From: Propionimicrobium sp. PCR01-08-3
GTDB taxonomy: Bacteria; Actinomycetota; Actinomycetes; Propionibacteriales; Propionibacteriaceae
DNA length: 64,000 nucleotides
Assembly: GCF_030286045.1 (NCBI RefSeq)
Contig: NZ_CP127390.1
Span: forward strand, 1,116,001-1,180,000
Reading direction: 5' to 3'
The position numbers and the translations under genes are program-made. Positions 8,009-25,541 of this stretch are shown one piece after another (position 1 is the first letter of the stretch; every line of letters starts with the position of its first letter). The notes below the pieces were generated by a model. The model searched no databases. It saw only the letters and a list, made by a program, of their open reading frames with translations, and had not been told where the DNA came from.

Positions 8009-8009
8009 G

Positions 8010-9545: not shown

Positions 9546-9585
9546 CTGATGTTTGTTCAGCCCTTACCCGGGCATCAGCCTGGGG

Positions 9586-10905
9586 CTACTTTTGGCCTTG
9601 GGCGGCTTTCATGAAGCGGCGTTGGTAGCTGACGACTTGGTTGGTGGAGGTGAATCGGGCGAGGTAGCCGGGTTCTGCGGTGACGACGACGCGGTCGGCC
9701 ATATCGGAGAATTCGTCGCTGGCCAATAGTTTGTCGATGTCGGGATAGTTGAAGTCGCCTTCCATGGAGCAGATGATCAGCCGGGTGTCGGGCAGGTTCG
9801 CGTTGCGTAGGGCGCGCAGGTTGTGGCGGACCGAGTCCAGGCCGTCGGAGCCTTCGGGGTCTTGGATGTGCCGGTAGGCGACGATGGTGCGGGCCCGCGA
9901 GACGGCTTCGTCCGGGTTCATGCCGGTGTCGGTGCTGGCCAGGTAGTCGGTGGACACCATGTAATCGCGTAGTTCGGCGGCCGCGTCGTGATCGCCGCCA
10001 TCGAGGCGGGCGAGTAGTTCGACCATCTTCTGGGATTGCATCAGACGGTGCCGGATGAACGAGTTGATGAAGTAGGGGCGGGCCTGCAACGCCATCTGGG
10101 TTTGGTAGGGCTCGAACATCAGCGTGTAGTTGATCCGATACCCGGCCTCGGTCAACTTCAAGGTGAGGTTGTGGCCGCGCAGGGCGTCGGCGGTGGCGGG
10201 TTCCCAGTAGCGCTGGTCGAGCCTGCCATCACCTTCCAGCAGCTGGTGCACATTTTGTGCGTTGACCGGGCCGGTGTGCGGCACTTTGATGACGACCCGG
10301 TCTTGGCCGAGGAGTTCTTTGAAGAAGGCGGCCTCGTCCAGAATCTTGTTGAAATCTTCTTCGAATGGGTTGTTCAGTTCGACGGAGATGTCGCAGCCCG
10401 GCCCGAGGATGCGTCCGAGTTCTGCCATGACCTCGTCACGGGTGTTGAACTTGTGGTCGACGTTCGCCGCAGGATTGTTGATGAACAGGTCGTAGATGAT
10501 GCCCGGGTTACAGGTCAGGTTACCCAGCAGCGGCGCGATCGGCGCGATCTCGTACGGGTTCGCAGAATCGGCGGAATAGATGACCGCGGTCGGGCGCTTC
10601 CTGCCGTCGGTGTCGTAGCCGATGTCGCGCTTCAAATTGACGTTCAGCAGGCCGTCGGGTTCGAGGTCGTATTCGAACCGGAACCCTGCCGGGGTGTGAC
10701 CGGCCTCGGGCTTGAAATAGTCACAGATACGGACGAACTCGCTGGTGACCCCGATATGGGTGGCGTTCTCGGCGAGCAGCGAGAACTGCAGTTCGTCGAC
10801 AGGCTGGGCCAGCACCCGGTCGAGATGATCACTGGCGCCACGCGCAGGCTCCAAACCCAGCGAACGCAAACGTAGTTGTAGCGGAGGGGTTAACGGTTGG
10901 TGCAT
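9586..10905 (-). CDS. Divergent transaldolase-like (class I aldolase fold) protein
   Basis: 439 aa, longer than standard transaldolases (about 220-370). The order of strands fits the transaldolase family: LLGNLTCNPGIIYDLF (as in the TTNPSLI region), then CDISVELNNPF, VVIKVPHTGPVN, and NLTLKLTEAGYRINYTLMFE followed by YFINSFIRHR. The Lys in VVIKVP is the expected Schiff-base residue by position. ATG 10905 has GAGGAG nearby. It is the last gene of the aldolase-FGGY operon. A carbon-carbon lyase or transferase acting on a sugar phosphate is inferred; the substrate is unknown. Confidence 0.65.
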   Translation of the reverse strand: MHQPLTPPLQLRLRSLGLEPARGASDHLDRVLAQPVDELQFSLLAENATHIGVTSEFVRICDYFKPEAGHTPAGFRFEYDLEPDGLLNVNLKRDIGYDTDGRKRPTAVIYSADSANPYEIAPIAPLLGNLTCNPGIIYDLFINNPAANVDHKFNTRDEVMAELGRILGPGCDISVELNNPFEEDFNKILDEAAFFKELLGQDRVVIKVPHTGPVNAQNVHQLLEGDGRLDQRYWEPATADALRGHNLTLKLTEAGYRINYTLMFEPYQTQMALQARPYFINSFIRHRLMQSQKMVELLARLDGGDHDAAAELRDYMVSTDYLASTDTGMNPDEAVSRARTIVAYRHIQDPEGSDGLDSVRHNLRALRNANLPDTRLIICSMEGDFNYPDIDKLLASDEFSDMADRVVVTAEPGYLARFTSTNQVVSYQRRFMKAAQGQK

Positions 10906-10955
10906 CAGAAAATGCTCCTCACTTTTCGAATCGTTGTTATCAGCATTGATGAAAG

Positions 10956-11423
10956 TTATCGGGTAGGTTGCAGCGAATACCCGCGCGAGGCCAGCCCATT
11001 CTCAATAAGCGCGATCGAACGCGTCTGCTTGATAATGAAATAGCCGAGCGGAATGAACACCACGCACATTGCCAGGGCGAGCAGGCCGTTGCTCGGATAG
11101 ATATAGACGATGCCGATCACCACAATCAGTCCGAGGATGATCTCGGAGCGGCGCTTGCCCTTCAACATCTTGCGGGTGGTGAGCAGGTTGTCGACGATCT
11201 GCTGTTTTTCGGACGATGTTTTCTCGCCGGACATGTGGACGCCGAGGGCTTCCCGGTGGTCACGGTTCTCTTGTATCTGGCGGACGATGCCCCGCGCGAG
11301 ATAACCGAGCGCCAAAACCCCGAATCCGACGGCCAGCACGGTCTGCCCGCGGCCGGCGAAGATACTCGCCAGAATGCCCAAGCAGGCAACAGTCATCAGA
11401 TAGAAGCCCCAGCGCTGGTTCAT
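10956..11423 (-). CDS. Small four-helix membrane protein, unknown
   Basis: 155 aa. Two hydrophobic segments near residues 7-45, a charged cytoplasmic-looking stretch (IQENRDHREALGVHMSGEK), then two more near 93-133. I do not recognise the family. Its ATG overlaps the FGGY kinase stop (ATGA), so it is translationally coupled to the operon, and a 50-base gap leads to the transaldolase-like gene. The place suggests an accessory role in uptake or sensing, but nothing in the sequence proves it. Confidence 0.6.
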   Translation of the reverse strand: MNQRWGFYLMTVACLGILASIFAGRGQTVLAVGFGVLALGYLARGIVRQIQENRDHREALGVHMSGEKTSSEKQQIVDNLLTTRKMLKGKRRSEIILGLIVVIGIVYIYPSNGLLALAMCVVFIPLGYFIIKQTRSIALIENGLASRGYSLQPTR

Positions 11424-12754
11424 GCGGTCAGCTCTCCGTTGTAGTGGCGGACAAGTTCGACATTACCCAACACGGAACAATTGTCGACGACCTCGAAACT
11501 GAAGCCTGGGAACTGTTGTTCCTTCAGCTTGATGAATGCGGGGGTCGACATGCCGCCGGTCAGTTTGATGACCGAATCCATCGGCACCACTTCGCCGGCG
11601 AGCTTCACCACGTCGTACAGCACTGTGTTCATCGATTTCAGCATGGTGGCCAGCATTTCGTCGCGGGTGGCGGCCAGGGTCAGCCCGTGCCAGGCGCCGG
11701 TGCGTTTTTCGAGTGACTGCCGGTCACCGGTCAGGTACGGATCGAAGCTGACCTCGCCGTCATCGGCGAACCTGTCGATACACGAGGGCAGATAGTCGGT
11801 GTTGAACTGGTCACGGGTCATCTCTTTGCAGAACTGTTCAAAGAACCAGTCGATACCGAACCCGCCGGCGGTGGTGGCATAGATCTGCCAGATACCCGGC
11901 AGCGCGGAGTTCCGCAGATAGTAGCCGGGATTGGTGACGGGCTTGTCGATGAGGATCGACACCATGTCCGAGCTGCCGGCAGTGTTCATGATGCGTCCGG
12001 CGCGGTCGTTGTGGGCGCCCATCTGGGCCGACGCCATGTCGTTGGTGCCGACCGCCACCGGGATACCCGCCGGTACTCCCAGCCGATCAGCCGATTCCGG
12101 CAGCAGTGTGCCCAACAATTCGCCCGGATTACGGATCTCGGGGAACCATTCGTGTTTGAGGCCGAAAGTGTCGAGCAGTTCGGACGACCAACCACCCTGG
12201 GTGGTCGTCTCATACAGGCCGAGCATCGACGCGTTGACCAGATCGACCATCCACTCACCCGTGAGACGATGATGCACCAAGGTGGGCAGGTGACCGATGC
12301 GGTAGGTGCGCTCCAGCACCTCGGGCTGGTTCTGTTGCATCCACAGCACCGTCATGATGCCCGCCCCGCCCGCGAACGGATAGATACCGGCGATCGACAG
12401 ATACGTGTCCTTACCGACCACCTCGTTGATGACGTCGGTGATCGAGCGGCTGCGCCGATCCATGTGCGTGATGATGTTCGGATAGGCCAGCGTGCCGTCC
12501 TCGGCGATGAACACCGGGGAGGGCGAGAACGTGTCGTAACACAACACCCCGACCTGTTCCCGCAATTCGGCGGGCAACCTCTTCGACGCCTGGCCGGTCG
12601 CCTCGAACAGCACCTCCGGGTCGATCTCCACCTTCTCACCCGGCAACAAAATATAGGGATACTCCTGCTTCTCGGAGGCGAGCACCCTCAGATCATCATC
12701 GAGGATCTCCATCTTCACCGCAGAAGTGCCGAAATCAATGGACAGGTAATACAT
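11420..12754 (-). CDS. FGGY-family carbohydrate kinase
   Basis: 444 aa from ATG 12754 (GAAAGGA eight bases upstream); an upstream in-frame extension is rejected because MYYLSIDFGTSAVK is the usual FGGY start. Phosphate-1 motif DFGTSAVK, the catalytic-region Asp in GTNDMASAQMG, MNTAGSS and the C-terminal adenosine motif KLTGGMSTPAF are present. It should phosphorylate a ketose, polyol or related sugar. It follows the DHDPS-type aldolase after 13 bases. Length is slightly short for xylulokinases. Specificity cannot be inferred; apulose, xylulose or a tetrulose are possible given the island. Confidence 0.88.
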   Translation of the reverse strand: MYYLSIDFGTSAVKMEILDDDLRVLASEKQEYPYILLPGEKVEIDPEVLFEATGQASKRLPAELREQVGVLCYDTFSPSPVFIAEDGTLAYPNIITHMDRRSRSITDVINEVVGKDTYLSIAGIYPFAGGAGIMTVLWMQQNQPEVLERTYRIGHLPTLVHHRLTGEWMVDLVNASMLGLYETTTQGGWSSELLDTFGLKHEWFPEIRNPGELLGTLLPESADRLGVPAGIPVAVGTNDMASAQMGAHNDRAGRIMNTAGSSDMVSILIDKPVTNPGYYLRNSALPGIWQIYATTAGGFGIDWFFEQFCKEMTRDQFNTDYLPSCIDRFADDGEVSFDPYLTGDRQSLEKRTGAWHGLTLAATRDEMLATMLKSMNTVLYDVVKLAGEVVPMDSVIKLTGGMSTPAFIKLKEQQFPGFSFEVVDNCSVLGNVELVRHYNGELTA

Positions 12755-12767
12755 GGCAGGCGTCCTT

Positions 12768-13688
12768 TCAGGCCCCGAAGGTCGCGAGTTCGGCGAGACC
12801 CTGATCGAGGGCCTGACGGATCTGGGATTCAGCATCGGCGCTGACCCGGCAAACAGGCCGCCGGGGCGCTCCCGCGTGGTAGCCGCGGATATTCATCGCG
12901 GCTTTCAGGCTCGCCACACCCTGCTTACCGCCACCGCTCTTCGCGACCCGACTCAAAATGCGGTAGTACCGTTTCGCCGCATCAGGTGACTCGTTGAAAT
13001 AAAGATCAGTCAGCCGGGCGCATTCGTCCGGCAGATAATTCGCGGCCGACACCACACCACCCGGGCCGTCGAAAGCCAAACAGGTCATGACATTGGACAA
13101 CGAACCCGCCATCACAGCGAAATCATCACGCGCACCGGCGGCCACCATGTACTCGGTCATCATGGTCGGCGAGGTGTCCTTGACACCCGCGATATTAGGA
13201 TGATCGGCGAGCTCGGCCAGCACACTCGGCGGCACCGTCACACCGTTGGCGTATCCGGGTGCCACGTACAACAAGATCGGAACCGGACTCGCATCGGCCA
13301 CCGCCGTATAGAAATCGGCCAGCGCGGGCCCATCGTCCAACTTCGCGAAATAGTTCGGGGTGAGCACCGAGACGTAATCGATGGAGTCACCCCACGGCTC
13401 CAAGCTCCGGACGAACGAGATCGTCGTCCTGGTCGACTCGCGTCCGGCACCCACGATCAACGTCTTGTCACCCTTGTTGGCTGCCGCAGCCTTGATAACG
13501 GTGCGGGACTCTTCGTCATCGACCGCCTTGAACTCACCATTAGTGCCCAGCACCATATAGCCGGCCACACCGGTACCGTCCCACAACCCGAAATTGTGCT
13601 CCAAAGCCGCAACATCAACAGCTTCATCGCTACCGGCATCAAACGGGGTCGCAACCGGAATGATCACGCCTCGCAATTGGTCGTTCAT
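12768..13688 (-). CDS. DHDPS/N-acetylneuraminate-lyase family aldolase
   Basis: 306 aa from ATG 13688, with GGAG just upstream; the longer open frame is not supported. The family TIM barrel shows GTNGEFKAV, the Tyr of ILLYVAPGY and the Schiff-base Lys in IAGVKDTSP. Members cleave or condense 2-keto acids with aldehydes via a Lys imine. In a catabolic island a 2-keto-3-deoxy sugar acid aldolase or dehydratase is likelier than lysine biosynthesis. It is the first gene of a four-gene operon: aldolase, FGGY kinase, membrane protein, transaldolase-like. Confidence 0.88.
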   Translation of the reverse strand: MNDQLRGVIIPVATPFDAGSDEAVDVAALEHNFGLWDGTGVAGYMVLGTNGEFKAVDDEESRTVIKAAAANKGDKTLIVGAGRESTRTTISFVRSLEPWGDSIDYVSVLTPNYFAKLDDGPALADFYTAVADASPVPILLYVAPGYANGVTVPPSVLAELADHPNIAGVKDTSPTMMTEYMVAAGARDDFAVMAGSLSNVMTCLAFDGPGGVVSAANYLPDECARLTDLYFNESPDAAKRYYRILSRVAKSGGGKQGVASLKAAMNIRGYHAGAPRRPVCRVSADAESQIRQALDQGLAELATFGA

Positions 13689-14152
13689 TTCGCTCCAAAC
13701 AGGTCGACTCACCGAATACAAGCAGCCATTCGACCTCGGACGACTGCTGGGCATTGTATGGGCTGGAACTTCTTGGGGGTCGGATCTGCCGACGTGCGCC
13801 TTCAACAGCGCTCATCGTCGGATCGAAGCCTCGTCCGCCACAACGGTTATACGTACATGCTATAGGAAATGACAGAGCCGGGCCAATCGCCGATGCCATC
13901 AAATCGTCTGATACGCAGGCTCTCTCGAGGTTCGGCAAGGTTCTGCTTAATTGATTGCTGTGACGCTCGCTTGCCGATGCCATTCTACGGTCGATGGCCG
14001 GCCTGCCTGGAGATTGCCGGATGCAGCAGGAATGCCGGTCAGGGCAGTGTCCAGAATGAGGTCCGCGCCCGGGCTTTGAGAGCCCCTGGGCGCGAACCCC
14101 ACAACTTAGTGGTGCACACAGGCCGGTCACAGCTGTTGCGGAACTGGATTTG
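13689..14152. other. Promoter region of the aldolase operon
   Basis: 464 bases with no plausible gene. On the minus strand an AT-rich element (GTATAAC near 13846-13853) could serve as a -10 for the aldolase operon. GCTATAGGAA at 13859-13868 (minus strand TTCCTATAGC) resembles an element upstream of the dehydrogenase gene near 16331. Confidence 0.4.
14064..14094 (-). terminator. Hairpin after the Nramp-like gene
   Basis: 7+5 bp GC stem with a two-base bulge (14064-14075/14081-14094), starting about 60 bases after the transporter stop. No T-run follows, so it may be an RNA-stabilising structure and not an intrinsic terminator. Confidence 0.5.
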
Positions 14153-15646
14153 TCAGCTGAAGAAGCCGATCAGGCCGACGATGCCCATCACGGTCATCGC
14201 GATGGACGCGATCACCAGGATGACCTGGATGAGCGGCTTCATGCGCAACTGCTTGGGCAATACCTTGTATTCGGCGCGCAAGAGGCAGAAGCCCCACAGA
14301 CCGAGCGCGAAGACACCACCGAGGATGCCGGCGAAACCGATCACCGCCGTATAACTCGCCCCGGTCAGCGCCAAGATGATTGCGATGCCGAGGGTGTAGG
14401 TGGCGACGATGATGCGCAGTTTTTGCCAATGCTTGGGATTGTTCAGCACCGGGAAGGCTGGGCTGAACGCTTCACGCACGGTGTACGGATAGGTCACCGT
14501 CAACAATGCCTGTTGCGAGCCCCAGAAGGCACACCAGATGGCCACCATGTAGAGATACTTCAGTATCGGGTGCACATTGGTGAAGAATGCTGCCTGCTCA
14601 GTCAGGATGTTGTTATCGGCGGGGACCTGCTGCGCTCCGTCGGCGCCGAGCACCACGGTGCCGAGAACCATGAAGGTAACGGCGAAGATACCCACCGCGA
14701 TGAACGAGGTAACAGAGTCGATCTTGGCGGCTTTGACGCCGGTGGCGCAACGCTCCAGGTTCTCATCGTCCATGGCGATCGGAATCTGCTCGTCCTTGCC
14801 GAGGGCCTGCAGTTGCAGGTTGATCTCGGTGTTGTCAGCGCGACCGAGCATGCCCCAGTCCTTCTCGCGGAAGGTGCCGATGTAGCCGATGTAGTCGTAG
14901 ATGCCGCCGCCCAGCGCGCCCAGATAGGACAATATTTCAACCGGGATTGCCTTGGCTGCGACATCGGGGAACTTCTCCTGCACCCAGCCCGGGTACTCGG
15001 AGGGCACCTCCGGCACGAACAGGCCCTGCAGCACGTGCCCCCAGTTCGGGTTGGCCACGATCAATGCGATGATCGAGAAGACGATCAGCAAGCCGACGAT
15101 CGCGGTCTGCAGGTTCTCGACCTTGCTGAAGTCCTTCACCCACAAGGTGATGTAGGCGATGAGGCTCCAGGCGATGCCTGCCCACAGCCAGGGCTCCTGA
15201 GAGCCGGTGATGACCCACGGAGTCCACTGGCTCAGCGCCAGGATGTAGGCAACGCACCAGGCTGGGAAACAGACCGCTGCCAGCACGCCGAAGAAGGTGG
15301 CCAGCCAGTGCCTGCCGACACCGCTCTTGGTGAAACCTGGAATGACGTGGCCCATCCTGGCGAACGGGTGCTCGCCGGTGATGACCATGTAGCGGGCCGC
15401 GGCGTAGACGACGACTGCCTTGAAGATGGCGCCGAAGATGAATGTCCACAAGATGGTGTAGCCGAAGACCGCGCCACCTCGGGTGGCCTGGAAGATCTCG
15501 CCATTGCCGATCGTCACGGAGGCCAGGATGAATCCGGGGCCGACGATGCTCAGTAGATCGAGGAACTTCTTTGAAGCAAGCTTGGGATCTTGCTCGGGAT
15601 ACCGTAAGGGTTCCAGCGCGGGAGTTGTTTCAACCCCTGTACTCAT
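14153..15646 (-). CDS. Nramp-fold transporter lacking metal-binding motifs
   Basis: 497 aa with about 11-12 hydrophobic segments. The first helix region, GPGFILASVTIGNGEI followed by GYTILW, aligns with Nramp helix 1, where metal transporters have DPGN; here it reads IGNGE. The helix-6 region (LGALGGGIYDYIGYIGTF) lacks the MPH motif. It also has a roughly 50-residue polar loop after that helix. In canonical Nramps the Asp, Asn and Met of these motifs bind Mn/Fe, so a different substrate is likely. It is the only obvious transporter in the island. Start ATG 15646 follows GGAGGATCC on the minus strand. Confidence 0.78.
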   Translation of the reverse strand: MSTGVETTPALEPLRYPEQDPKLASKKFLDLLSIVGPGFILASVTIGNGEIFQATRGGAVFGYTILWTFIFGAIFKAVVVYAAARYMVITGEHPFARMGHVIPGFTKSGVGRHWLATFFGVLAAVCFPAWCVAYILALSQWTPWVITGSQEPWLWAGIAWSLIAYITLWVKDFSKVENLQTAIVGLLIVFSIIALIVANPNWGHVLQGLFVPEVPSEYPGWVQEKFPDVAAKAIPVEILSYLGALGGGIYDYIGYIGTFREKDWGMLGRADNTEINLQLQALGKDEQIPIAMDDENLERCATGVKAAKIDSVTSFIAVGIFAVTFMVLGTVVLGADGAQQVPADNNILTEQAAFFTNVHPILKYLYMVAIWCAFWGSQQALLTVTYPYTVREAFSPAFPVLNNPKHWQKLRIIVATYTLGIAIILALTGASYTAVIGFAGILGGVFALGLWGFCLLRAEYKVLPKQLRMKPLIQVILVIASIAMTVMGIVGLIGFFS

Positions 15647-16465: not shown

Positions 16466-17419
16466 ATGGCTATCAACAAAATCGCGGTTGTCGGTGCGGG
16501 TTACATGGGGGGTGGCATCGCGCAGGTTTTCGCGATTGCCGGTCATCAGGTCGTCCTCGCCGATGCGGACGCCGAGCTGACCAAGAAGAATCTCGAGCGG
16601 CTGATCGCCGAGGCGAAGGACTGGGAGGAGCGTGGCCTCTTCCTGCCGGGTAATGCTGTGCTTGTCGAAAGGAATCTGAGCGCTGCTGAAAGCATCGAGG
16701 ACGCCGTCGCCGATGCGGACTACATTCAAGAAGCCGTTCCCGAGAAGCCCCAAATCAAGGATGCGGTGCTCAGCCGCATCGAGGCCGCCGCGCGTCCGGA
16801 TGCGATCATCGCCTCCAACACCTCGACGCTGCCCATCGGCGGGCTCGCGAAGTCGCTGAAGAAGGCCGACCGTTTCCTGGGTGTGCATTTCTCCAACCCG
16901 TCGCCGTTCATCCCGGGCGTTGAGGTGATCTTGCACAAGGGAACCGATGAATCTTTGCTGCCCGAGATCGAAGAACTCGTTCGCTCGACGGGCAAACTGA
17001 CCGCGCGAGTCAACGACTCACCCGGTTTCGTGCTCAACCGCCTGCAGTATGCGCTGCTCAAGGAGGCCATCAGCATCGTCGATGACGGTGTGGCCGCCGC
17101 GGACGATGTCGACATCATCACCCGCACGACCTTCGGATTCCGGCTGCCGTTCTTCGGGCCGTTCGCCATCGCCGACATGGCCGGGCTGGACGTCTACCGC
17201 GATTGCTTCAAGACTTTCGAAGACAACTTCGGCGAGCGCTTCGCGACCCCCGAGGGCCTGAAGAATCTGGTCGACGAAGGACATCTGGGCACCAAGGCAG
17301 GCGGCGGCTTCGTCATTCCGGCGGGCGACACCACCGACCTGGTGGCCTACCGCAATACCGCCTATGCCAAACTGCAGCAGCTGCTCACCGAGTTGGGCCA
17401 GGCTCCCGGCGTGAAATAG
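16466..17419 (+). CDS. 3-hydroxyacyl-CoA/3-hydroxyacid dehydrogenase family protein
   Basis: 317 aa. The N-terminal Rossmann motif is VVGAGYMGGGIAQ, followed by the acidic strand end VLADAD that favours NAD. ASNTSTLPIG and the catalytic-type motif GVHFSNPSPF are present, then a helical C-terminal domain with VNDSPGFVLNR. The family includes 3-hydroxybutyryl-CoA, carnitine and L-gulonate 3-dehydrogenases. In this island oxidation of a sugar-acid 3-OH is plausible: the resulting 3-keto acid could lose CO2 to give a ketose. A fatty-acid role is possible but no other beta-oxidation gene is nearby. GAGGAGGG precedes the ATG. Confidence 0.82.
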   Translation: MAINKIAVVGAGYMGGGIAQVFAIAGHQVVLADADAELTKKNLERLIAEAKDWEERGLFLPGNAVLVERNLSAAESIEDAVADADYIQEAVPEKPQIKDAVLSRIEAAARPDAIIASNTSTLPIGGLAKSLKKADRFLGVHFSNPSPFIPGVEVILHKGTDESLLPEIEELVRSTGKLTARVNDSPGFVLNRLQYALLKEAISIVDDGVAAADDVDIITRTTFGFRLPFFGPFAIADMAGLDVYRDCFKTFEDNFGERFATPEGLKNLVDEGHLGTKAGGGFVIPAGDTTDLVAYRNTAYAKLQQLLTELGQAPGVK

Positions 17420-17561: not shown

Positions 17562-18494
17562 ATGTCGAAATACACTGCCGAGAACTGGCCGATTGCCTGC
17601 CCGATGCTGCTGTTCGGCGGCCTCGACTCCAAGGGCGGCCCCATTCAGGACGCCGATCCCTCCGAGTGGCAGCGTCAGATGGCAGAAGTCGCCGCCATGG
17701 GCTTCACCGAAATGGACCCCCTTGATGTCTGGGTGCGCGTCGGTGACCTGTCGCCGGCCCGGCTGAACGACTTCAAGCAATGCCTCGCTGACACCGGGCT
17801 GACCGTGCCGGGCATCTCGACCTCGCGCAAGTCGCTGGTGGATGCTGAGCGCGGCGAGGAGTACCTGGCCTACGGCCACCGACTGATCGACACCGCGGTC
17901 GAGCTGGGTGCAGAGGTCGTGTCATTCGGCTTCTTCCAGCCCACGACACCGGCGCAGGACGCCGCGGTCTGGTTCTGGCTGGCTCCCGGCCATAAGGACT
18001 CCGATGACCCGGAGATCTACAAACTCGCCGTCAGCCGCATCCGCGAACTGGCCGAGCACGCTCAGTCGGTCGGCATCCAGATCACCTTGGAGATGTTCGA
18101 GGACACCTATCTCGGCAGCTCCGACCAGTGCGTGAAGTTCGTCACCGATGTCAACCATCCGGCCTGTGGCCTGAACCCGGACCTCGGCAACCTGGTGCGG
18201 TTGCATCGTCCGCTCGAGCCGGTCACCGAGGCATTCGAGAAGATGCTGCCCTACACCAACTACTGGCACATCAAGAACTACACGCGTGACTTCGACCCGG
18301 CGACCGGTGCCTACTCGACTCATCCTTCGCCGATGGCGGGTGGCTATGTGAACTACCGCAATGTCATCGCCCGGGCACTCGAACTCGGCTTCGAGATGCC
18401 GTTCATGGTGGAGCATTACGGCGCCGATTCGCTGTACAACCTGGCCGAGTCCAGGGAGTACATCCGTTCGGTGCTGCGCGCCAAGATGGCCTGA
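17562..18494 (+). CDS. Sugar phosphate isomerase/epimerase (xylose-isomerase-like TIM barrel)
   Basis: 310 aa, AP_endonuc_2-type TIM barrel. Likely metal ligands in order: Glu in ITLEMFED, Asp in GLNPDLGNL, His in NYWHIKNY and Glu in FMVEHYG. Such proteins interconvert keto- and aldo-sugars or epimerise sugars and sugar acids with a divalent metal. AAGGAG lies upstream of ATG 17562. It follows the dehydrogenase after 142 bases on the same strand, probably one transcript. Candidate roles from the family include apiose isomerase, 2-/3-oxotetronate isomerase and ketose 3-epimerase; sequence alone does not decide. Confidence 0.8.
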   Translation: MSKYTAENWPIACPMLLFGGLDSKGGPIQDADPSEWQRQMAEVAAMGFTEMDPLDVWVRVGDLSPARLNDFKQCLADTGLTVPGISTSRKSLVDAERGEEYLAYGHRLIDTAVELGAEVVSFGFFQPTTPAQDAAVWFWLAPGHKDSDDPEIYKLAVSRIRELAEHAQSVGIQITLEMFEDTYLGSSDQCVKFVTDVNHPACGLNPDLGNLVRLHRPLEPVTEAFEKMLPYTNYWHIKNYTRDFDPATGAYSTHPSPMAGGYVNYRNVIARALELGFEMPFMVEHYGADSLYNLAESREYIRSVLRAKMA

Positions 18495-18580
18495 CGTCCT
18501 CGTCACCATCGGTGCGGGATCTTCGTGCCTTGACCATAATTGAGGGTACGTACTCCGATTGCGATACGACTGGAGGAAAG

Positions 18581-18778
18581 ATGAGCGATAACCAGATTTC
18601 CGAAACCTCGAAGCTGACGCCCCAACCCGGTGACGACGAGACTCCCGCCATTGATGAGGCCGCTCCGTCTGCCGAGGACACCCAACACGTGGCTCAAGGC
18701 CATCCACGCGACTACGCGTCCGATCGCGAGGAGCCTACCGATCGGGAGAAGGAGTCTCGGCCCAAGCACATTCCCTGA
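18581..18778 (+). CDS. 65-aa acidic, disordered-looking small protein
   Basis: ATG 18581 is preceded directly by GGAGGAAAG. The product is hydrophilic, rich in Asp, Glu, Pro and Ser, with no hydrophobic segment, ending REKESRPKHIP. I do not recognise it. It lies 86 bases after the TIM-barrel gene; TTGACC near 18531 might start its own promoter. A strong hairpin follows. Coding status rests on the ribosome site and position. Confidence 0.5.
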   Translation: MSDNQISETSKLTPQPGDDETPAIDEAAPSAEDTQHVAQGHPRDYASDREEPTDREKESRPKHIP

Positions 18779-18831
18779 TCTCGTAGCCGATATACACGGC
18801 TTGCTCTGAGATCAAACTCGGACGATGACAA

Positions 18832-18873
18832 ACACTGCTCCCCTTGGCCAAGAACAGCCAAGGGGAGCAGTGT
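18832..18873. terminator. Bidirectional terminator, 17-bp stem
   Basis: Perfect 17-bp inverted repeat (18832-18848/18857-18873), loop CAAGAACA, between convergent units. On the minus strand TGTTTGTC follows the stem. It separates the dehydrogenase/isomerase unit from the LarA-like/DhaKL unit. Confidence 0.88.
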
Positions 18874-18951
18874 CATATAGGGGGTGATCGAGATCGGGCG
18901 TCACAGAGAATTATCGGTACTCGTCGGTACCCTCAAATCTTTGTCCGGTTC

Positions 18952-20241
18952 CTAATCCAGCGGCTCGGAGGCAGGGAACAGATCATCGTTTTCGTCGAAG
19001 ACCAGCTCGGTTGCGTCCGTCAGCTGGGTGAGGGCCGGATCGGCGGCCACCTCGTCGAGCAGCGGTTCGGAGACCCAGACCTCGGCGACGTCGAGCGTGT
19101 TGACGATGCGAACCATCCGCGACTTCGTCAGATCGGGAATCAGCGTCAGCCGGGAGGCACATTGCAGAGCCATCTTCTGGTTCGGCATGAACGGGGCGAT
19201 CCGCGATCCGGCGATGCCGTTCGAGGTGACGCCGTTGGTGAACATGGCGGTGAAATCGATCTGGTCGAACAGTCGTGCCGTGGTGATGTCGGCCAGGCCC
19301 AGGCCGGTGGCGTTGCCGTGTGACTCGGGTGTCATGTCGAGTACGACGATCTTGTTCACGTTCATCTCGGGATTCTTGATCCCGATCAGCGAGCGGCCCA
19401 AGACATTCGGATCCATGCCGTCGCCGGAGATGTTCTTGCCCATATAGTCGACGATCAGCACGTCGATGTCATGAATGAGCAATCTCGGCAGGTGCTTGCG
19501 TGATTCCTCCAGCAGCCTGGGCTCGGTCTCCTCGATCTTGTCGGTCTCGATCAGGACGACATCCCTGGTCTGGTCGAGCGAGTTCTCGAGCACCCCGACA
19601 CCGAAGATGATGTTGGCCTTCTTGAACATCACCGGAGCGATCTTCTGAATCATCTGCCCGGCCTTGTCCAGGCCACGGGAGTGCGCCTGCAGCGCCCCGC
19701 GATGCTTGCCGGCACCGATCGCCGCCATCTTGAACAGACCGGATTCGATCGGCCCGACAATGTCAGTGTGGGCCTTGATCCGGTTGCACAGAATCAATCC
19801 GTCGCAAGCGAGCGCATCGGATGAGAAGAGCACCTTCAGGCCGTCGACCTCACCCAGTTCGGTGACGTCGAGGCTGGAGACGATCTCGCAACCGGTGTTC
19901 TCTGGAGTGAATCCCATGCCGAGCAGCATCTGCTGCTGTCCCTCGGCGGTGGCTCCGCCGTGACTGCCCATCGCCGGGATGATCACCGGGGTGGCGCCCT
20001 TCGACTTCACCCAGTCGGCAAACGTGCGGACGATCAGCGGCATGTTGGCGATGCCGCGACTGCCCACGGTGATACCGATCCGCTGGCCGGCTTGTACGGT
20101 CTGATCGAACTCGGGCCTGGCCAGTTGCTCTGCGATGCGCCCGGGCACATCGTCCAACCGCGGAGCCGGGAGATCTTGGTGAACCTTGGCGAACCGCGGC
20201 AGTGGAACGTCGTCGAGAATCAGATTGAGCGAGTTCTTCAT
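18952..20241 (-). CDS. LarA-like (DUF2088) putative nickel-dependent racemase/epimerase
   Basis: 429 aa. Contains GSRGIANMP, the His-bearing IPAMGSHGGAT and the Lys/His signature LCNRIKAHTDI followed by GAGKHRGA, resembling lactate racemase LarA, where His and Lys residues hold a nickel-pincer cofactor. Characterised LarA homologues racemise or epimerise alpha-hydroxy acids, including malate and D-gluconate. AAAGGAG precedes ATG 20241, 15 bases after the DhaKL stop, so the two are probably co-transcribed. No cofactor-synthesis genes (larB, larC, larE) lie in the window. Inference: C2-epimerisation of a sugar acid. Confidence 0.75.
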   Translation of the reverse strand: MKNSLNLILDDVPLPRFAKVHQDLPAPRLDDVPGRIAEQLARPEFDQTVQAGQRIGITVGSRGIANMPLIVRTFADWVKSKGATPVIIPAMGSHGGATAEGQQQMLLGMGFTPENTGCEIVSSLDVTELGEVDGLKVLFSSDALACDGLILCNRIKAHTDIVGPIESGLFKMAAIGAGKHRGALQAHSRGLDKAGQMIQKIAPVMFKKANIIFGVGVLENSLDQTRDVVLIETDKIEETEPRLLEESRKHLPRLLIHDIDVLIVDYMGKNISGDGMDPNVLGRSLIGIKNPEMNVNKIVVLDMTPESHGNATGLGLADITTARLFDQIDFTAMFTNGVTSNGIAGSRIAPFMPNQKMALQCASRLTLIPDLTKSRMVRIVNTLDVAEVWVSEPLLDEVAADPALTQLTDATELVFDENDDLFPASEPLD

Positions 20242-20256
20242 TGCGATCTCCTTTGA

Positions 20257-21993
20257 TCAATCGGTTGTGCAGTCAAACAGTCCCGCTTCGCCAAGAGCGC
20301 TCATCAGCATGCAGAACGAGATGGCACCGGGATCGGCCACCCCGATCGACTTCTCGCCGAGCACATGTGAGCGTCCCAGCTTCGAGACGAAGTTAGCGGT
20401 GTCGTCGGCGGCCGCCTGAGCGGCGTCGGTGGCCTGCTTCCAGGCCTCGGGTAGTGCGACGCCGTCGTTCACCTTGGCGGTCAAGGTTTCGGTGAAGGGG
20501 ACGAGCGCGTCCACCAGGGTCTTGTCTCCCGGCTTCGCGCCACCGAGGCGCTGCACGGCATCGACGGCGTCGTGAACACCGGTCGCCACGGTCTGACCGG
20601 TGGCGGCGTCCTGATCGCCCAGCGCGTTGCCGAAGGCGTTGAGAATGCAACCCCACAACGCTCCGGAGGTGCCGCCGGCGCTCTCGGACCACTGCGCTCC
20701 GGCCCGGACGAGCAGGGTTCCGGCGCCGGCCTGCTGAGCGGCGGCGTCCTTGGCGGCTTCCAGGGCCCCGGTGGCGCCGAAACGCATGCCTTGGCCGTGG
20801 TCGCCGTCACCGGCGATGGCGTCCAGCTTGCCGAGCTCCGGCTCCTTGTCGACGGTGACCTGCTTGATGATTTCCAAGCCCTTGACGATCTCGGCCGCCA
20901 GCGCCTGGGAGGCCTCGCTGCCCGGTGTGATCGGGGGAGCGGCCTGTTCGCCTTCGTCGCGGACCTCACGCTCGGCCCGCTCGGCGACAGCACCACGCCG
21001 CAGGGCGATGGTGTCGACGGGGTCACGCCACAGGTCTTCCAGCTCGTCGTCGAGGAAGGTGATGGTGAGCGAGACGCCTGCCATGTCGAGGCTGGTCATC
21101 AGCTCGCCGACTTCGGGGAGCACCGGAGTGATGCCGGCCTCGGCCAGCCGCTCGGCTACCCGGTTCCAGATCACATACAACTCTTCGTACTTGACGGTGC
21201 CCAGCCCGTTCAACAACACGATGGCGTTGCCGTTGAATCCGTCGGTCGCGAGATCGATGGTCTCTTTCATAACGCCGTCGACCAGCAGATCGGCGATCTC
21301 GGTGGCCGTGCCCATCGGCACCTCGTAGACGCCCGGCTCGCCGTGCACGCCCAGGCCCACCGACATCTGGCCCTCGGGCACGGTGAACAGCGGCTCATCG
21401 GCGCCGGGCAGTGTGCAACCACCGAATGCCACCCCGAGCGAGCGGGTGCGGTCGTTGGCCCGCCACGCGAGTTCGGTGACCTGGTCGATGTTCTTGCCGC
21501 GTTCGGCGGCCGCCCCGGCGATCTTGAAGACGACCACGTCGCCGCAGACGCCGCGGCGCTTGCGGAGTTCTTCTGCCGGCCCGGACGCCACATCGTCCGA
21601 CACCTCGATGGTGCGCACGTCGTAACCCTCGGCGCGAAGACGCTCGGCGGCCTGCCCGAAGTGCAGCACGTCACCGGCATAGTTGCCGTAGCCGATGATG
21701 ATGCCGCCACCGTTGTCCGCCGCCTTGGCGACCGAGTAGGCCTGAGAGGCAGATGGGGAGGCGAAGACATTGCCGCAGACCACGCCGTGCGCCATGCCGG
21801 GCCCGACCCAACCGGCGAAGCCGGGGTAGTGACCCGAACCTCCGCCGACGATCAGCGCAACCTGGCCCTCGGGGCTGGCGGTTGCCCGCACGGCACCACC
21901 GTGCACGGTCTTCAGATATTGCGGATAAGCCGAAGCCATTCCCGACACGGCTTCGAGCGCAAAGTTGGATGGATCGTTGAACACACGAGTCAT
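20257..21993 (-). CDS. DhaK-DhaL fusion kinase (dihydroxyacetone/erythrulose type)
   Basis: 578 aa from ATG 21993 with AGGAG six bases upstream. The N-terminal DhaK domain has GGGSGHYPGF and the His of VGLGVHGEPG that forms a hemiaminal with the substrate carbonyl. The C-terminal DhaL domain, after about residue 380, has the Mg-binding Asp cluster AIAGDGDHGQGM. ATP-dependent single-chain enzymes of this type phosphorylate dihydroxyacetone, glyceraldehyde or erythrulose. Neighbours RpiB and split transketolase are compatible with tetrose phosphate or DHA as intermediate. No PTS DhaM is present, supporting an ATP-dependent enzyme. Confidence 0.88.
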   Translation of the reverse strand: MTRVFNDPSNFALEAVSGMASAYPQYLKTVHGGAVRATASPEGQVALIVGGGSGHYPGFAGWVGPGMAHGVVCGNVFASPSASQAYSVAKAADNGGGIIIGYGNYAGDVLHFGQAAERLRAEGYDVRTIEVSDDVASGPAEELRKRRGVCGDVVVFKIAGAAAERGKNIDQVTELAWRANDRTRSLGVAFGGCTLPGADEPLFTVPEGQMSVGLGVHGEPGVYEVPMGTATEIADLLVDGVMKETIDLATDGFNGNAIVLLNGLGTVKYEELYVIWNRVAERLAEAGITPVLPEVGELMTSLDMAGVSLTITFLDDELEDLWRDPVDTIALRRGAVAERAEREVRDEGEQAAPPITPGSEASQALAAEIVKGLEIIKQVTVDKEPELGKLDAIAGDGDHGQGMRFGATGALEAAKDAAAQQAGAGTLLVRAGAQWSESAGGTSGALWGCILNAFGNALGDQDAATGQTVATGVHDAVDAVQRLGGAKPGDKTLVDALVPFTETLTAKVNDGVALPEAWKQATDAAQAAADDTANFVSKLGRSHVLGEKSIGVADPGAISFCMLMSALGEAGLFDCTTD

Positions 21994-22348
21994 CGACGAC
22001 TCCTCAAGTACGGACGCTGCCAGCGTCTTGGCGGTGGTATACACGGCTTCCGGCATTCACTTCTGCGGGAATCCTGATGCCCTGGTCACGGTCGGCCCGA
22101 CCGCTCCCGGGCACTAAAAATCATACACGATCTTTTGCTACTGCCCCCTGTCGAGGCTATCGGGCTGGCGAGGTTGTTGCTGACGGGCTCTGCTGATGCA
22201 GCTCGATTCGAGATGGTTCGAGGTTCGCTGTCTCGTGATGGCCGGCGAAATACTTCGTCCAGCCATTCACGCCAAGGCTCCGGCACGCGAAAACGGCCCG
22301 GTGCGTGCTGGTTGGGCAACGCTCCGGGCCGTCTGGTGTCGGGGTGAA
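21994..22348 (-). promoter_or_regulatory. dhaKL promoter region
   Basis: 355 bases between the transketolase C-subunit stop and the kinase start. On the minus strand a TATGAT -10-like hexamer (complement of 22120-22125) lies about 125 bases before the ATG, suggesting a separate transcript. The upstream part holds a terminator at 22290-22332. Confidence 0.45.
22290..22332 (-). terminator. Terminator of the transketolase operon
   Basis: 9-bp GC stem (22293-22301 with 22324-22332) around a 22-base loop. On the minus strand it is followed by TTTTCG. Confidence 0.72.
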
Positions 22349-23281
22349 TCAGCGTCCCAGGAACTCGCTCACCCGCGAGGTGATGCTCGCGGCATCGATG
22401 CCGGCATTGGCCAGCAAACCGTCGTAGGGACCGACCGGCTGGTAGGCGTGCGGCACACCGATCGGCAGCCACCTGGTGGGCTGTTCGCGACCGAGCAGTT
22501 CGGCCACCGCGCCACCCATACCACCGGTGTCGTAGTGTTCCTCGACCGTGACGACCGCACCGGTGCATGCAGCCGAAGCGCAGATCAGTTCTGCGTCCAG
22601 ATGCGATGGGGTGGGCATACCGATCAGGTCGACCGAAATCCCGGCAGCGGTCAACTGCTTGACGGCCTCGACCGTTTGCACCGACTCGTATCCGGTCGTG
22701 ATGATCGTGACGTCGGAACCCTTCTGCAGATGCCGTCCCTTGCCGATCACCACCGGCTCTTCGTCGAAGAGATCCGGCAACGCCTGAGCGCCGATGCGCA
22801 TATAGGTCGGGCCGACATGCTCGATCATCGCCGCCGCACAGCTGCGGATCTCGCCGGGATCGCTGGGCGCGAAGACCACCAATCCGGGGATCATCCGCAT
22901 GATGGCGTAGTCCTCGAGTGACTGATGGGTGGCACCCAGGTCGGAATACGTGAAACCGCCGTTGCGTCCGACGATCTTGGCGTTCTCACCCATATAGCCG
23001 AGGTCATTGCGCACCATCTCGTAACTGCGCGCGGTGACGAACGGCGCGATTGCTGCGAAGACCGGGATCTTGCCGGTGCTCGCCAGCCCGGACGCGATGC
23101 CGGTGACGCCCTGCTCCATGATTCCGAACTCGAAGTAGCGCTCGGGGTGCTGTTGGGCGAAGTCGCCGAATCCGGAACTCTTACCGGAATCGGCAGACAG
23201 CACCACGATGCGCTCGTTCTCGGCGGCCAGAGCGGTCACCGCGCGCCCGAACTCCTTGCGCGGATCGGTCATTCCACTCAT
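22349..23281 (-). CDS. Transketolase, C-terminal subunit (split)
   Basis: 310 aa: pyrimidine-binding and C-terminal domains of transketolase. Shows FEFGIMEQGVTGIASGLA, with the Glu that activates thiamine diphosphate, then FAPSDPGEIR and a C-terminal Rossmann-like domain (VTIITTGYES). ATG 23281 overlaps the stop of the N-terminal subunit (ATGA). Split transketolases occur in archaea and in specialised catabolic clusters; known examples include apulose-4-phosphate transketolase AptAB. Together with the N-subunit it should transfer a two-carbon ketol unit. Confidence 0.9.
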   Translation of the reverse strand: MSGMTDPRKEFGRAVTALAAENERIVVLSADSGKSSGFGDFAQQHPERYFEFGIMEQGVTGIASGLASTGKIPVFAAIAPFVTARSYEMVRNDLGYMGENAKIVGRNGGFTYSDLGATHQSLEDYAIMRMIPGLVVFAPSDPGEIRSCAAAMIEHVGPTYMRIGAQALPDLFDEEPVVIGKGRHLQKGSDVTIITTGYESVQTVEAVKQLTAAGISVDLIGMPTPSHLDAELICASAACTGAVVTVEEHYDTGGMGGAVAELLGREQPTRWLPIGVPHAYQPVGPYDGLLANAGIDAASITSRVSEFLGR

Positions 23282-24129
23282 TGGTTCACCTTCTGTTCGC
23301 ATGCGGCGATGGCCTGATCGAGCTCGCTCACCGCTTGTTCCAGCTCTCCTGGTGCCGGCTTCCAGAAGTGATAGGGCAGCTTGTCCTCGGCGAAACTGAT
23401 GCCCTTGGCCTTGGTGGTGTGCGCAACGATGACGCTCGGCTTATCGGCCTCGAACGGCGTGGCGTCGAGCGCCTGCACAACCTCGGCCATGTCATTGCCA
23501 TTGATCTCGCGAGCGGCCCAGCCGAATGCTTCGAACTTGCCGGCGATCGGCGCCATATTCATCACGTCGGACACCCGGCCGGAGATCTGCATGCCGTTGT
23601 TGTCGACGACCGCCACCAGATTGCTGACCTTGTGATGGGCCGCGGCCGCGGCGGCTTCCCAATTCGAGCCTTCGGGAAGCTCACCGTCACCCATGATGGT
23701 GAATACCCGCGAACCGAATCCCGACAGGCGAAGACCGAGGGCCGTGCCCACCGAGATCGACAATCCATGCCCGAGCGCGCCGGTATTGGCCTCGACGCCG
23801 GGGCACTTGTGCATATCCGGGTGCCCGCCCAAGGCGGTGTTCATCGCGTCGTAGGTGTCGAGGAGCGACCGATCGAAGAATCCCCGCTCGGCAAGAACGG
23901 CATATTGGCCCATCGCCTTGTGTCCGGCACTGAGTAGGAAACGGTCTCGCTCGGGCCAGTCGGGACGGGCGGGATCGATATTCATGACGTCGAAATACAG
24001 TGCGGTGATGATGTCAATGGCCGACATCGCTCCGCCCAGGTGTCCGGCATGACCCGTCTGGATCATCCGGACGACGTTGCGCCTGGCCCGGGCAGCATGT
24101 AATTCGAGTTTGGCTACCCGATCGCTCAC
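23278..24129 (-). CDS. Transketolase, N-terminal subunit (split)
   Basis: 283 aa: the thiamine-diphosphate-binding half. The motif GDGELPEGSNWEA through VVDNNGMQISG is the GDG-x(n)-NN cofactor signature; GHAGHLGGAMSAIDI and LSAGHKAMGQYA carry the conserved His residues. GTG 24129 overlaps the RpiB stop (GTGA), so rpiB, tktN and tktC are translationally coupled. The organism presumably has a separate housekeeping transketolase outside the window. Confidence 0.9.
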   Translation of the reverse strand: MSDRVAKLELHAARARRNVVRMIQTGHAGHLGGAMSAIDIITALYFDVMNIDPARPDWPERDRFLLSAGHKAMGQYAVLAERGFFDRSLLDTYDAMNTALGGHPDMHKCPGVEANTGALGHGLSISVGTALGLRLSGFGSRVFTIMGDGELPEGSNWEAAAAAAHHKVSNLVAVVDNNGMQISGRVSDVMNMAPIAGKFEAFGWAAREINGNDMAEVVQALDATPFEADKPSVIVAHTTKAKGISFAEDKLPYHFWKPAPGELEQAVSELDQAIAACEQKVNQ

Positions 24130-24566
24130 AACGCCTCGGCTTCGATCTCGCAGACCCGGGCGACCTTGGCGCCACTGCGCGAGTTGGGATCGAAGGTGTT
24201 CGAAAGATAGATCTCGAGGAGCACTTTGGCGGTCTCGATGCCGGTGGTCTGAGCACCCATCGCGACCATGTTCGCGTTGTTGCTGAGGGTTGCGCGCTGA
24301 GCCGAGTAGGGATCGGCCAGCAGCGCGCAGTAGGCACCCTTCACCTTGTTGGCTGCGAGCGAAACGCCGATGCCGGTGCCGCAGACGACCACGCCGCGGT
24401 CGTACTTCTTATCGGCGACGGCATGGGCGACGTCGGCGGCGACATTCGCGTAGATCGGGTCCTCGGAACCGAAGTCGGTCACCTCGTGGCCGAGCGACTC
24501 CGCCTTGGCGATGAGTGCCTTCTTGAGTTCTGCGGCGTTGGGGTCGCAACCGAATGCGAGCTTCAT
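24126..24566 (-). CDS. RpiB/LacAB-family sugar phosphate isomerase
   Basis: 146 aa from ATG 24566, preceded by AGGAGAGGAAG. RpiB fold: FGCDPNAAELKKAL, the catalytic Cys in VVCGTGIGVS and SNNANMVAMGAQ. The family isomerises ribose 5-phosphate and, in tetritol pathways (DerI of Mycobacterium smegmatis, EryI of Brucella), D-erythrulose 4-phosphate to D-erythrose 4-phosphate. First gene of the operon with split transketolase, which could consume erythrose 4-phosphate. Ribose, allose or tetrose phosphate are the candidate substrates. Confidence 0.88.
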   Translation of the reverse strand: MKLAFGCDPNAAELKKALIAKAESLGHEVTDFGSEDPIYANVAADVAHAVADKKYDRGVVVCGTGIGVSLAANKVKGAYCALLADPYSAQRATLSNNANMVAMGAQTTGIETAKVLLEIYLSNTFDPNSRSGAKVARVCEIEAEAL

Positions 24567-24628
24567 GGATCTTCCTCTCCTGTGAAGATGACGATCGAGT
24601 GGCGGAAAACCCGCGCACAATCTGCCTC

Positions 24629-24641
24629 TATGATATATGAT
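24629..24641. promoter_or_regulatory. Divergent promoter core between RpiB and SDR
   Basis: TATGATATATGAT contains two overlapping -10-like hexamers on the plus strand (24629-24634 and 24636-24641) and a TATCAT on the minus strand. It is the only AT-rich stretch of the 195-base divergent spacer, so it probably serves both the rpiB operon and the SDR gene. Confidence 0.45.
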
Positions 24642-24761
24642 CTGTCACAGGCGCACAGGCTAACGAGAGCCGTAAAGCGCGACTCAGGCGAAGCTTGCGC
24701 CCGCTTGAATACCCAGCCTAGTGCCTGCGCTGATGCAGGCAACAATCCAAGGAGGATTGGA

Positions 24762-25541
24762 ATGTCGGAAACTGGAAACCCGTTCCCCGCCGAGCGCACT
24801 GCCGTCGTGACCGGTTGCGGAGCACCTGCCGGGATCGGTCGGCACGTGGCACGTAAGTTGGCCTCGTCGGGCTACAACGTCGCGGTTATCGACCTCAACC
24901 CCGCGGTACTGGACTTCGCGACCGAACTTGCCGGCGAATTCCCGGACAAGAAGGTCGTCGGCATCGTCACGGATATTGCCGATGACGCGTCGGTGAAGGA
25001 AGCTTGGGAGCGCATCGATGCGGAACTGCCGCAGGTGACCGGCCTGGCCAACCTCGCCGGTATTGCCTGCCCGACCCCGTTGCTCGAGCTGACCGTTCCC
25101 GAGTTCGACAAGGTGATGGCCGTCAACGCTCGCGGCACCATGCTGATGATGCAATACGGCGCTCGCCGCATGCAGAAGGCCCAAGTCGGGCGCATCGTCA
25201 ACTTCTCGTCCATCACCGCCTATGACGGCGGCGGCACCTTCTCGAAGATCGCCTACGCGGCCGGCAAAGCCGCTGTCATCGGTCTGACCCGCGGTGGGGC
25301 CCGCGAGCTCGGCCAGTACGGCATCACCACCAACTGCATCTGCCCCGGACCGATCGACACCGAGATCATGGGTGGCAAGTTGACTCCCGAGCGCAAGGCC
25401 TCCATGTCGGCCAATGTCCCGATCGGACGCGTCGGCCAGCCCGAGGAGATCGCGAATGTCGTCGACTTCCTGCTGTCGGAGGGCTCCAGCCTGATGAACG
25501 GTGCGACCTTCAACGTCGACGGCGGCAAGCATATGAAGTGA
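24762..25541 (+). CDS. SDR-family dehydrogenase
   Basis: 259 aa from ATG 24762 with an ideal AAGGAGG six bases upstream. Classical SDR: TGCGAPAGIGRHVA cofactor motif, acidic residue in VAVIDLNP suggesting NAD, NLAG in place of NNAG, catalytic Ser in NFSSITAYDG, and Tyr/Lys in IAYAAGKAAVIGL, with CPGPIDTEIM. It should oxidise a secondary alcohol of a polyol, sugar or sugar acid. It is divergent from the rpiB-transketolase operon and shares its regulatory spacer, so it likely provides the keto-substrate for that pathway. Confidence 0.9.
   Translation: MSETGNPFPAERTAVVTGCGAPAGIGRHVARKLASSGYNVAVIDLNPAVLDFATELAGEFPDKKVVGIVTDIADDASVKEAWERIDAELPQVTGLANLAGIACPTPLLELTVPEFDKVMAVNARGTMLMMQYGARRMQKAQVGRIVNFSSITAYDGGGTFSKIAYAAGKAAVIGLTRGGARELGQYGITTNCICPGPIDTEIMGGKLTPERKASMSANVPIGRVGQPEEIANVVDFLLSEGSSLMNGATFNVDGGKHMK

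Follow-up and report, generated by a model that had tools for sequence, protein, structure and literature searches.

Does a run of sugar-metabolism genes that stays together within a bacterial genus encode a single pathway, or several that happen to share an address? We address this question for a block of 13 intact genes at positions 9586-25541 of a 64,000-nucleotide stretch of Propionimicrobium sp. PCR01-08-3 (the window, by which we mean that whole stretch; the genome is 3.29 Mb in 2 contigs). The listing of open reading frames (ORFs) and profile scans place the block between secA and a glutamate-dehydrogenase-like (GDH) gene, the latter named by reading. Along the plus axis the block opens on the minus strand with a transaldolase/FSA-like enzyme (TAL), a small membrane protein, an FGGY kinase, a DHDPS-family enzyme, and an Nramp-like carrier; a 3HCDH-family dehydrogenase and a TIM-barrel enzyme follow on the plus strand; the nickel-pincer isomerase LarAH, the kinase DhaKL, the C-terminal (TKC) and N-terminal (TKN) halves of a split transketolase, and an RpiB-family isomerase lie again on the minus strand; and an SDR dehydrogenase closes the series on the plus strand (Table 1). 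A preliminary description made from the sequence had named twelve genes with their families, all of which the profile scans bear out as ORFs, but it had missed the thirteenth, the membrane protein. Our preferred answer, held at about even confidence, is that the 13 genes form one catabolic cassette, inherited as a unit and built from two older modules, which acts on a sugar acid, most likely a linear or branched aldonate of five carbons. The confidence is set at that level since the single-pathway reading rests on unbroken co-inheritance together with compatible chemistry.

The genus sample comprised eight genomes, the window's and seven congeners. All 13 genes lie between secA and GDH, with order and orientation kept, in three of the seven (G005, G006, and G007); as G005 and G007 are near-identical, this amounts to about three independent lineages, the window's counted. 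Their block proteins are 76-92% identical to the window's, the membrane protein 49-68%, and the flanking proteins 60-76% (GDH) and 80-87% (secA). An approximate NG86 comparison with G005 and G006, leaving out TKC against G005, gave nonsynonymous divergence (dN) of 0.05-0.20 and synonymous divergence (dS) of 0.71-1.82 for the twelve enzyme and carrier genes, and dN of 0.24-0.44 with dS of 1.08-1.35 for the membrane protein. The block evolves under purifying selection. That three congeners repeat the block gene for gene and strand for strand makes it more than a chance assembly, and its retention there under such selection supports a single cassette. The surrounding gene order, which the preliminary description had called mycobacterium-like, was put in the wrong frame: the nearest named relative is labelled a Propionibacterium sp. 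metagenome-assembled genome (MAG), and the frame is Propionibacteriaceae-like.

Outside the genus, the block falls apart into two recurring modules, A and B, plus additions. The view that its four transcription units belong together thus stands within the genus, where they are inherited as one, but in the neighbourhoods fetched elsewhere they split into these modules, which is half of what the preliminary description had itself named as counting against it. Module A consists of the TIM-barrel, 3HCDH, DhaKL, RpiB, and SDR genes. Relatives of the TIM-barrel enzyme (E <= 1e-50), for which the solved structure 5tnv is also a relative (371.8 bits), occur in 13 of 296 genomes of the class, the window's included. 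At the 12 non-genus loci examined (G092 only over an 11-kb stretch), DhaKL and RpiB each lie nearby in 10, the 3HCDH enzyme and a LerI-like isomerase of the triose-phosphate isomerase (TPI) kind in 8 each, and the SDR in 4. LerI is a literature name, as are LerK, OiaC, ApnO, and AptAB; LerK, LerI, and DerI come from work on tetritols and apionate, and DerI is also an NCBIfam name. Relatives of the TIM-barrel, 3HCDH, DhaKL, and SDR proteins share one locus in G277, G058, G327, G156, and an Arthrobacter plasmid, the last reached through its 3HCDH gene and carrying the full module A set. Where present, the proteins are 44-63% (TIM barrel), 54-62% (3HCDH), 47-59% (DhaKL), and 44-61% (SDR) identical to the window's, the SDR of the G277 module being the one at 61%; the DhaKL of G257 is an N-interrupted copy, 40-64% identical.

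The carriers of these loci differ in kind. A GntP permease is found at two of the 12, an MFS carrier at four (that of G058 plus three 31-83% alike), and TctA with PdxA at one, while none was identified at five, one of which (G113) holds a Tct-like gene by reading. On Paracoccus and Sinorhizobium plasmids (three of 94 plasmid records viewed), TIM-barrel (50-52%) and DhaKL (51-53%) relatives stand beside PdxA and a TctABC carrier. C3 oxidation, decarboxylation, and tetrulose phosphorylation are the steps for which such families are known. Because the core of module A pairs with unrelated acid-type carriers and with two unrelated types of 3-hydroxyacid dehydrogenase, it points to oxidation of a sugar acid at C3, loss of CO2, and capture of the tetrulose by a kinase. 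The company of the TIM-barrel gene, whether GntP, TctABC, or MFS and whether 3HCDH or PdxA-like, therefore supports a sugar-acid cassette, in line with the chemistry proposed earlier for the block. Elsewhere module A is usually accompanied by GntR, a carrier, and the TPI-like isomerase. Compared with this actinobacterial and rhizobial arrangement of TIM barrel, 3HCDH (or PdxA), DhaKL, RpiB, and LerI-like isomerase, the window has no TPI-like isomerase, no GntR, and none of the usual carriers, draws its RpiB from another lineage, and adds LarAH, the split transketolase, TAL, the FGGY kinase, the DHDPS-family enzyme, and the Nramp-like carrier.

Module B joins the split transketolase with RpiB, TAL, a dihydroxyacetone (DHA) kinase, and a class II aldolase in varying combinations, in Propionibacteriaceae and on the Cryobacterium plasmid pA10BH1. 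On this plasmid, which has the closest plasmid relative of TKC (57%), RpiB, TKN, and TKC follow one another in that order with overlaps of 4 bases; DhaL and DhaK adjoin them, as do genes for a class II aldolase, a HAD hydrolase, an aquaporin, and TPI. The plasmid's RpiB (63%) and TKN (60%) resemble the window's, as do the gene order and the 4-base overlap of RpiB and TKN; in the window the listed TKN and TKC genes share 25 bases, a figure that drops to 4 with a TKC start at 23281. Unlike in the window, no sugar-acid genes were seen with module B on pA10BH1 or in Propionibacteriaceae, and its separate DhaK and DhaL are just 32-36% alike to the window's kinase. TAL lies before RpiB-TKN-TKC in G670 and near TKN-TKC in G030. 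It had seemed genus-specific, with one hit in 394 class genomes, no plasmid match, and 50 pattern matches of which two were confirmed as relatives, but a three-sequence profile overturned this by finding it in 19 of 391 genomes of the order (4 of the genus including the window's, 14 of other genera of the family, and 1 of another family). Among 14 of the 15 non-genus neighbourhoods (a fragment in G668 was excluded, and several lie on short contigs), DhaK/DhaL occur in four, the split transketolase in two, and a class II aldolase in three, one of these also with DhaK/DhaL; six hold none of the three partners. As a control, 14 LarAH neighbourhoods, covering 278,613 bases against 223,098 for TAL, yielded no DhaKL, TKC, TKN, or TAL at the same limit, so that the company TAL keeps with DHA kinase and split transketolase supports the cassette. 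The TAL residues K207, E176, and D113 are invariant in all 19 sequences, the window's included, and its search against PDB by sequence returned just one unrelated match (E 0.69). In a termite-gut Bifidobacteriaceae MAG, TAL (61%) accompanies an FGGY kinase (22%), a DeoC-type aldolase, and an iron-type alcohol dehydrogenase, and three TAL loci of the family also hold an FGGY kinase, 22-23% alike.

In an alignment that includes E. coli TktA and both full-length transketolases encoded elsewhere in this genome, the split enzyme retains H26, H66, H100, G114, D155, N185, E411, H473, R358, and S385 but carries, in E. coli numbering, N for H461, L for D469, and A for R520. The two full-length enzymes retain H461 and R520, which bind phosphate in ordinary transketolases. 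Position 461 is also N in the split transketolases of Cryobacterium, G030, and G670, and their position 520 is G, N, or S; among plasmid ones, that of Collinsella retains both residues and that of Croceibacterium R520 only. With two canonical phosphate-binding residues gone, the substrate of the window's enzyme is probably non-standard and perhaps unphosphorylated.

LarAH belongs, by a curated cut-off, to group 22 of the LarA superfamily, a cut-off that all eight relatives tested also exceed. Its residues R62, H94, H158, K171, and H187, the five expected for catalysis and the nickel-pincer nucleotide (NPN) cofactor, are invariant in nine of nine aligned members; they were matched by motif and spacing, LarA itself not being in the alignment, to R75, H108, H174, K184, and H200 of LarA as given in the accessible part of PMC11770544, and the spacings of 32, 64, 13, and 16 are close to LarA's 33, 66, 10, and 16. 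The genome encodes the cofactor proteins LarC (207 > 90 bits), LarE (275 > 150), and LarB (275 > 175), and the LarAH query found no LarAH in it other than that of the block. LarAH is a candidate C2 epimerase of a 2-hydroxyacid. A function for group 22 is not stated in the accessible parts of PMC7583248, PMC11770544, and PMC12611868, and the terms 'group 22' and 'LarAH22' are absent from the main texts of the first two; no PDB relative was found by sequence. Relatives occur in 113 plasmid records, of which the five viewed (39-42%) proved to be of group 22. Four annotated ones stand beside UxaA dehydratases, beside IlvD/Edd and DHDPS, beside glucuronate isomerase with LarE/B/C, or beside a four-carbon-acid kinase with PdxA, and the Niallia record is without annotation; apart from those placed elsewhere, the members viewed belong to clusters for dehydratases, uronates, or four-carbon acids. 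These neighbours, the presence of LarB/C/E, and the kept catalytic residues support a sugar-acid cassette. We rejected a general partnership between LarAH and module A, since LarAH is absent from all 12 non-genus TIM-barrel loci and cassette genes are absent from all 14 chromosomal LarAH neighbourhoods. A Rubrobacter plasmid (L026, 2994-11275) unites a group-22 LarAH (521.6 bits) with an Nramp-like gene, a four-carbon-acid kinase, PdxA, and lactate-utilisation genes; here again LarAH has a hydroxyacid dehydrogenase as a neighbour, this one from a different family.

The Nramp-like carrier falls within the Nramp/MntH metal-transporter family by profile, yet both metal-coordinating motifs are replaced: at 18% identity to E. 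coli MntH, DPGN reads GNGE in transmembrane segment 1 and MPH reads YDY in segment 6, and the DPGN replacement is seen also against the solved Nramp1/2. Loss of both motifs makes a non-standard substrate probable, and the carrier has likely lost its metal function. Relatives in Haladaptatus (35%) share G[NS]GE and GGGIYDYIGY and adjoin UxaA, LUD, and mandelate-racemase-type genes; motif loss and these neighbours support a sugar-acid cassette, and the gene neighbours suggest that the carrier may move an organic acid. The Rubrobacter protein near LarAH is more distant (21%). PMC12445098 was set aside as a precedent linking Nramp to sugar acids, as the Nramp in its accessible part is a mouse gene and unrelated. 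The FGGY kinase and the carrier were each found in 1 of 394 class genomes, a rarity that may be overstated because strict limits and single sequences were used. In the neighbourhoods fetched, LarAH, the carrier, and the FGGY kinase are joined to modules A and B only in the host genus.

Taken as one pathway, the cassette would work as follows. The Nramp-like carrier would import the acid, LarAH would epimerise it at C2, and the 3HCDH enzyme, alone or together with the SDR, would oxidise it at C3; the TIM-barrel enzyme would then isomerise or decarboxylate the beta-keto acid to give a tetrulose, and DhaKL would phosphorylate the tetrulose (or dihydroxyacetone). RpiB, the split transketolase, and TAL would carry the resulting C4, C3, and C2 pieces into the pentose-phosphate pathway and glycolysis, and the FGGY kinase and the DHDPS-type enzyme might form a second entry branch. 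Since decarboxylation removes the C2 centre, a C2 epimerase would open the pathway to both C2 epimers. DhaKL and RpiB could serve both modules. A bolder version, which we consider unlikely, has the aldonate imported by an Nramp-fold carrier that has given up metals, both C2 epimers made usable by the nickel-pincer epimerase, oxidative decarboxylation to a free tetrulose, and the split transketolase, stripped of its phosphate anchors, rearranging unphosphorylated tetrulose and dihydroxyacetone with a new transaldolase-type family before DhaKL captures the C3 and C4 products. The cluster combines modules that recur and does not represent a new type of system; no paper in the open-licence literature, as far as its accessible text goes and with subscription papers outside the scope, was recognised as describing it.

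Several observations weigh against a single sugar-acid pathway. The LerI-like isomerase is absent from the block, the nearest protein in the genome being a TPI 36% alike, and the block's RpiB matches that of module B (63%) rather than those of module A (36-47%). RpiB of the block type also stands without the remaining block genes in G001 and G004. Eight of the 14 TAL neighbourhoods, some on short contigs, lack both DHA kinase and split transketolase, and the three-sequence AlphaFold model of TAL is poor (pLDDT 39.8, pTM 0.27). The FGGY kinase, which scores below the XylB cut-off (135 < 380 bits), and the DHDPS-type enzyme lack an assigned step. No equivalog cut-off is reached by TAL, FGGY, DHDPS, or the TIM barrel, nor by the 3HCDH and SDR enzymes among the 25 families listed for each. 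Finally, the block has no regulator gene, and in a comparison of three genomes no 11-mer recurs, with at most 2 mismatches, in at least three of the seven intergenic regions of every genome; the idea of one shared regulon finds no support.

This absence of a shared operator fits the foremost alternative, possible though somewhat doubtful, that two or three independent pathways occupy one hot spot and are held together by common descent alone: a sugar-acid-to-tetrulose route (3HCDH, TIM barrel, SDR, DhaKL, and LarAH), a ketose/DHA route (RpiB, split transketolase, and TAL), and the unit of FGGY, DHDPS, and Nramp-like genes. The separate occurrence of modules A and B outside the genus favours it, and so does the variability of the site. 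G001 has RpiB (86%) adjoining another sugar cassette (L101, 7025-12054) of FGGY kinase, zinc alcohol dehydrogenase, class II aldolase, and GpsA-like dehydrogenase, the last two checked by family and the others named by reading; this different cassette beside a conserved RpiB marks the secA-GDH interval as a hot spot of changing metabolic genes. G002 has no such block, and GDH, two small flanking genes, and secA run consecutively there. In G004, RpiB (86%) is followed by a decayed DhaL piece (53% over 81 residues, with no ORF of at least 60 residues in frame), after which the secA side resumes; the arrangement resembles the scar of a deletion. G003 was left out here because its contigs begin in GDH; a LarAH search of G001-G004 gave zero matches. 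The scar points to loss as well as gain, and we have accordingly dropped the notion of a recent insertion. Set against independent pathways, the order and orientation of 13 genes are unchanged although the flanking GDH is only 60-76% identical, and DhaKL and RpiB could serve both modules.

The site shows further features of its own. A single mobile island was also considered and not upheld: the window holds no tRNA and positions 8000-27000 no Rfam element, mobile genes not having been searched systematically, and GC content is 0.586-0.670 inside the block against 0.60-0.69 elsewhere. In congeners a Ku (end-joining) gene lies between the secA-side gene and TAL (L029, 9294-10130, 295 > 150 bits; L031, 8974-9906), and no Ku is present at 9463-9586 of the window. 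The divergent region between the Nramp-like and 3HCDH genes contains CTGGCAACGCTGCCTCC (15926-15942), a palindrome-like stretch centred on CG that is identical in all four genomes and without a second copy at up to 3 mismatches in the window; it resembles a LacI-type operator, although the block has no regulator gene.

A D-apionate route of the described kind, with an oxidoisomerase, a 3-oxo-isoapionate decarboxylase (here the TIM barrel), an L-erythrulose kinase (here DhaKL), and isomerases, is improbable. The apionate route has a branch in which a decarboxylase leads to L-erythrulose, and the combination of TIM barrel, tetrulose-type kinase, RpiB, and acid transporter fits its logic. To our knowledge, however, the apionate oxidoisomerase is not a 3HCDH enzyme, which counts against this route. 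No candidate apionolactonase or apiose dehydrogenase was recognised among the 13 genes, and there is no LerI-like isomerase beyond the TPI. Enzymes of apiose and apionate metabolism are named in the accessible part of PMC11747546. The resemblances to apiose and tetritol pathways suggested in the preliminary description appear weak. For apiose, the non-oxidative pathway of AptAB type pairs an FGGY kinase with a split transketolase; both are present in the block but 9.6 kb apart in different units, and the split transketolase has lost two canonical phosphate-binding residues; for tetritols, RpiB scores below the cut-off of the DerI model NF051858 for D-erythrulose-4-phosphate isomerase (128.7 < 240 bits), and the sole LerI-like relative in the genome is again that TPI. 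Besides the cassette RpiB the genome has a second RpiB/LacAB-like gene, 32-36% identical, at a distance of about 8 kb from larC (L098, 18788-19264).

A sulfosugar pathway, in which split transketolase, RpiB-type isomerase, and transaldolase act on a sulfonated ketose, is very improbable: the bifurcated sulfoquinovose cluster of Faecalicatena unites the same three activities and the phosphate-orienting motif of sulfofructose transketolases differs (PMC11659671, accessible part), much as the window's enzyme departs from the usual phosphate residues, but its set (R358 and S385 kept, N at 461, A at 520) is unlike both the canonical RSFHR and the sulfofructose RAFDR sets given there, no sulfoquinovosidase, sulfoquinovose isomerase, or sulfoacetaldehyde/sulfolactaldehyde enzyme was recognised among the 13 block genes searched, and LarAH, 3HCDH, and DhaKL would have no role.

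Table 1. Genes of the block between secA and GDH, in order along the plus axis. Likely starts were revised for FGGY (12754), DHDPS (13688), DhaKL (21993), RpiB (24566), and SDR (24762).
Feature	Coordinates	Strand	Evidence
TAL (transaldolase/FSA-like), 439 aa	9586..10905	-	Pfam TAL_FSA 41.4 bits
Small membrane protein, 155 aa, function unassigned	10956..11423	-	Orthologue in place in 3 congeners; zero family matches in profile scans
FGGY carbohydrate kinase	11420..12754	-	FGGY_N 111 bits
DHDPS-family (class I pyruvate-type) aldolase/lyase	12768..13688	-	Pfam DHDPS 111 bits
Nramp-like carrier without metal-binding motifs	14153..15646	-	NCBIfam Nramp_1 86.8 > 50 bits
3-hydroxyacid dehydrogenase (3HCDH family)	16466..17419	+	3HCDH_N 163 bits
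Xylose-isomerase-like TIM barrel (isomerase or decarboxylase)	17562..18494	+	AP_endonuc_2 97.5 bits
LarAH, nickel-pincer isomerase group 22	18952..20241	-	NF052515 477.6 > 400 bits
DhaKL-type ketose kinase	20257..21993	-	Dak1 371 + Dak2 159 bits; PRK14479 719.5 > 492
TKC, split transketolase C-terminal subunit	22349..23302 (start maybe 23281)	-	Transket_pyr + Transketolase_C
TKN, split transketolase N-terminal (thiamine pyrophosphate, TPP) subunit	23278..24129	-	Transketolase_N 155 bits
RpiB-family isomerase (LacAB_rpiB)	24126..24566	-	PRK05571 140.3 > 135
SDR dehydrogenase	24762..25541	+	adh_short_C2 198 bits

With one co-inherited sugar-acid cassette as the preferred reading, the locus gives nickel-pincer group 22 a concrete pathway context and links DHA kinase and split transketolase with a transaldolase-type family that is little characterised. 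It also offers a testable case of an Nramp-family protein whose substrate has probably switched from a metal to an organic acid.

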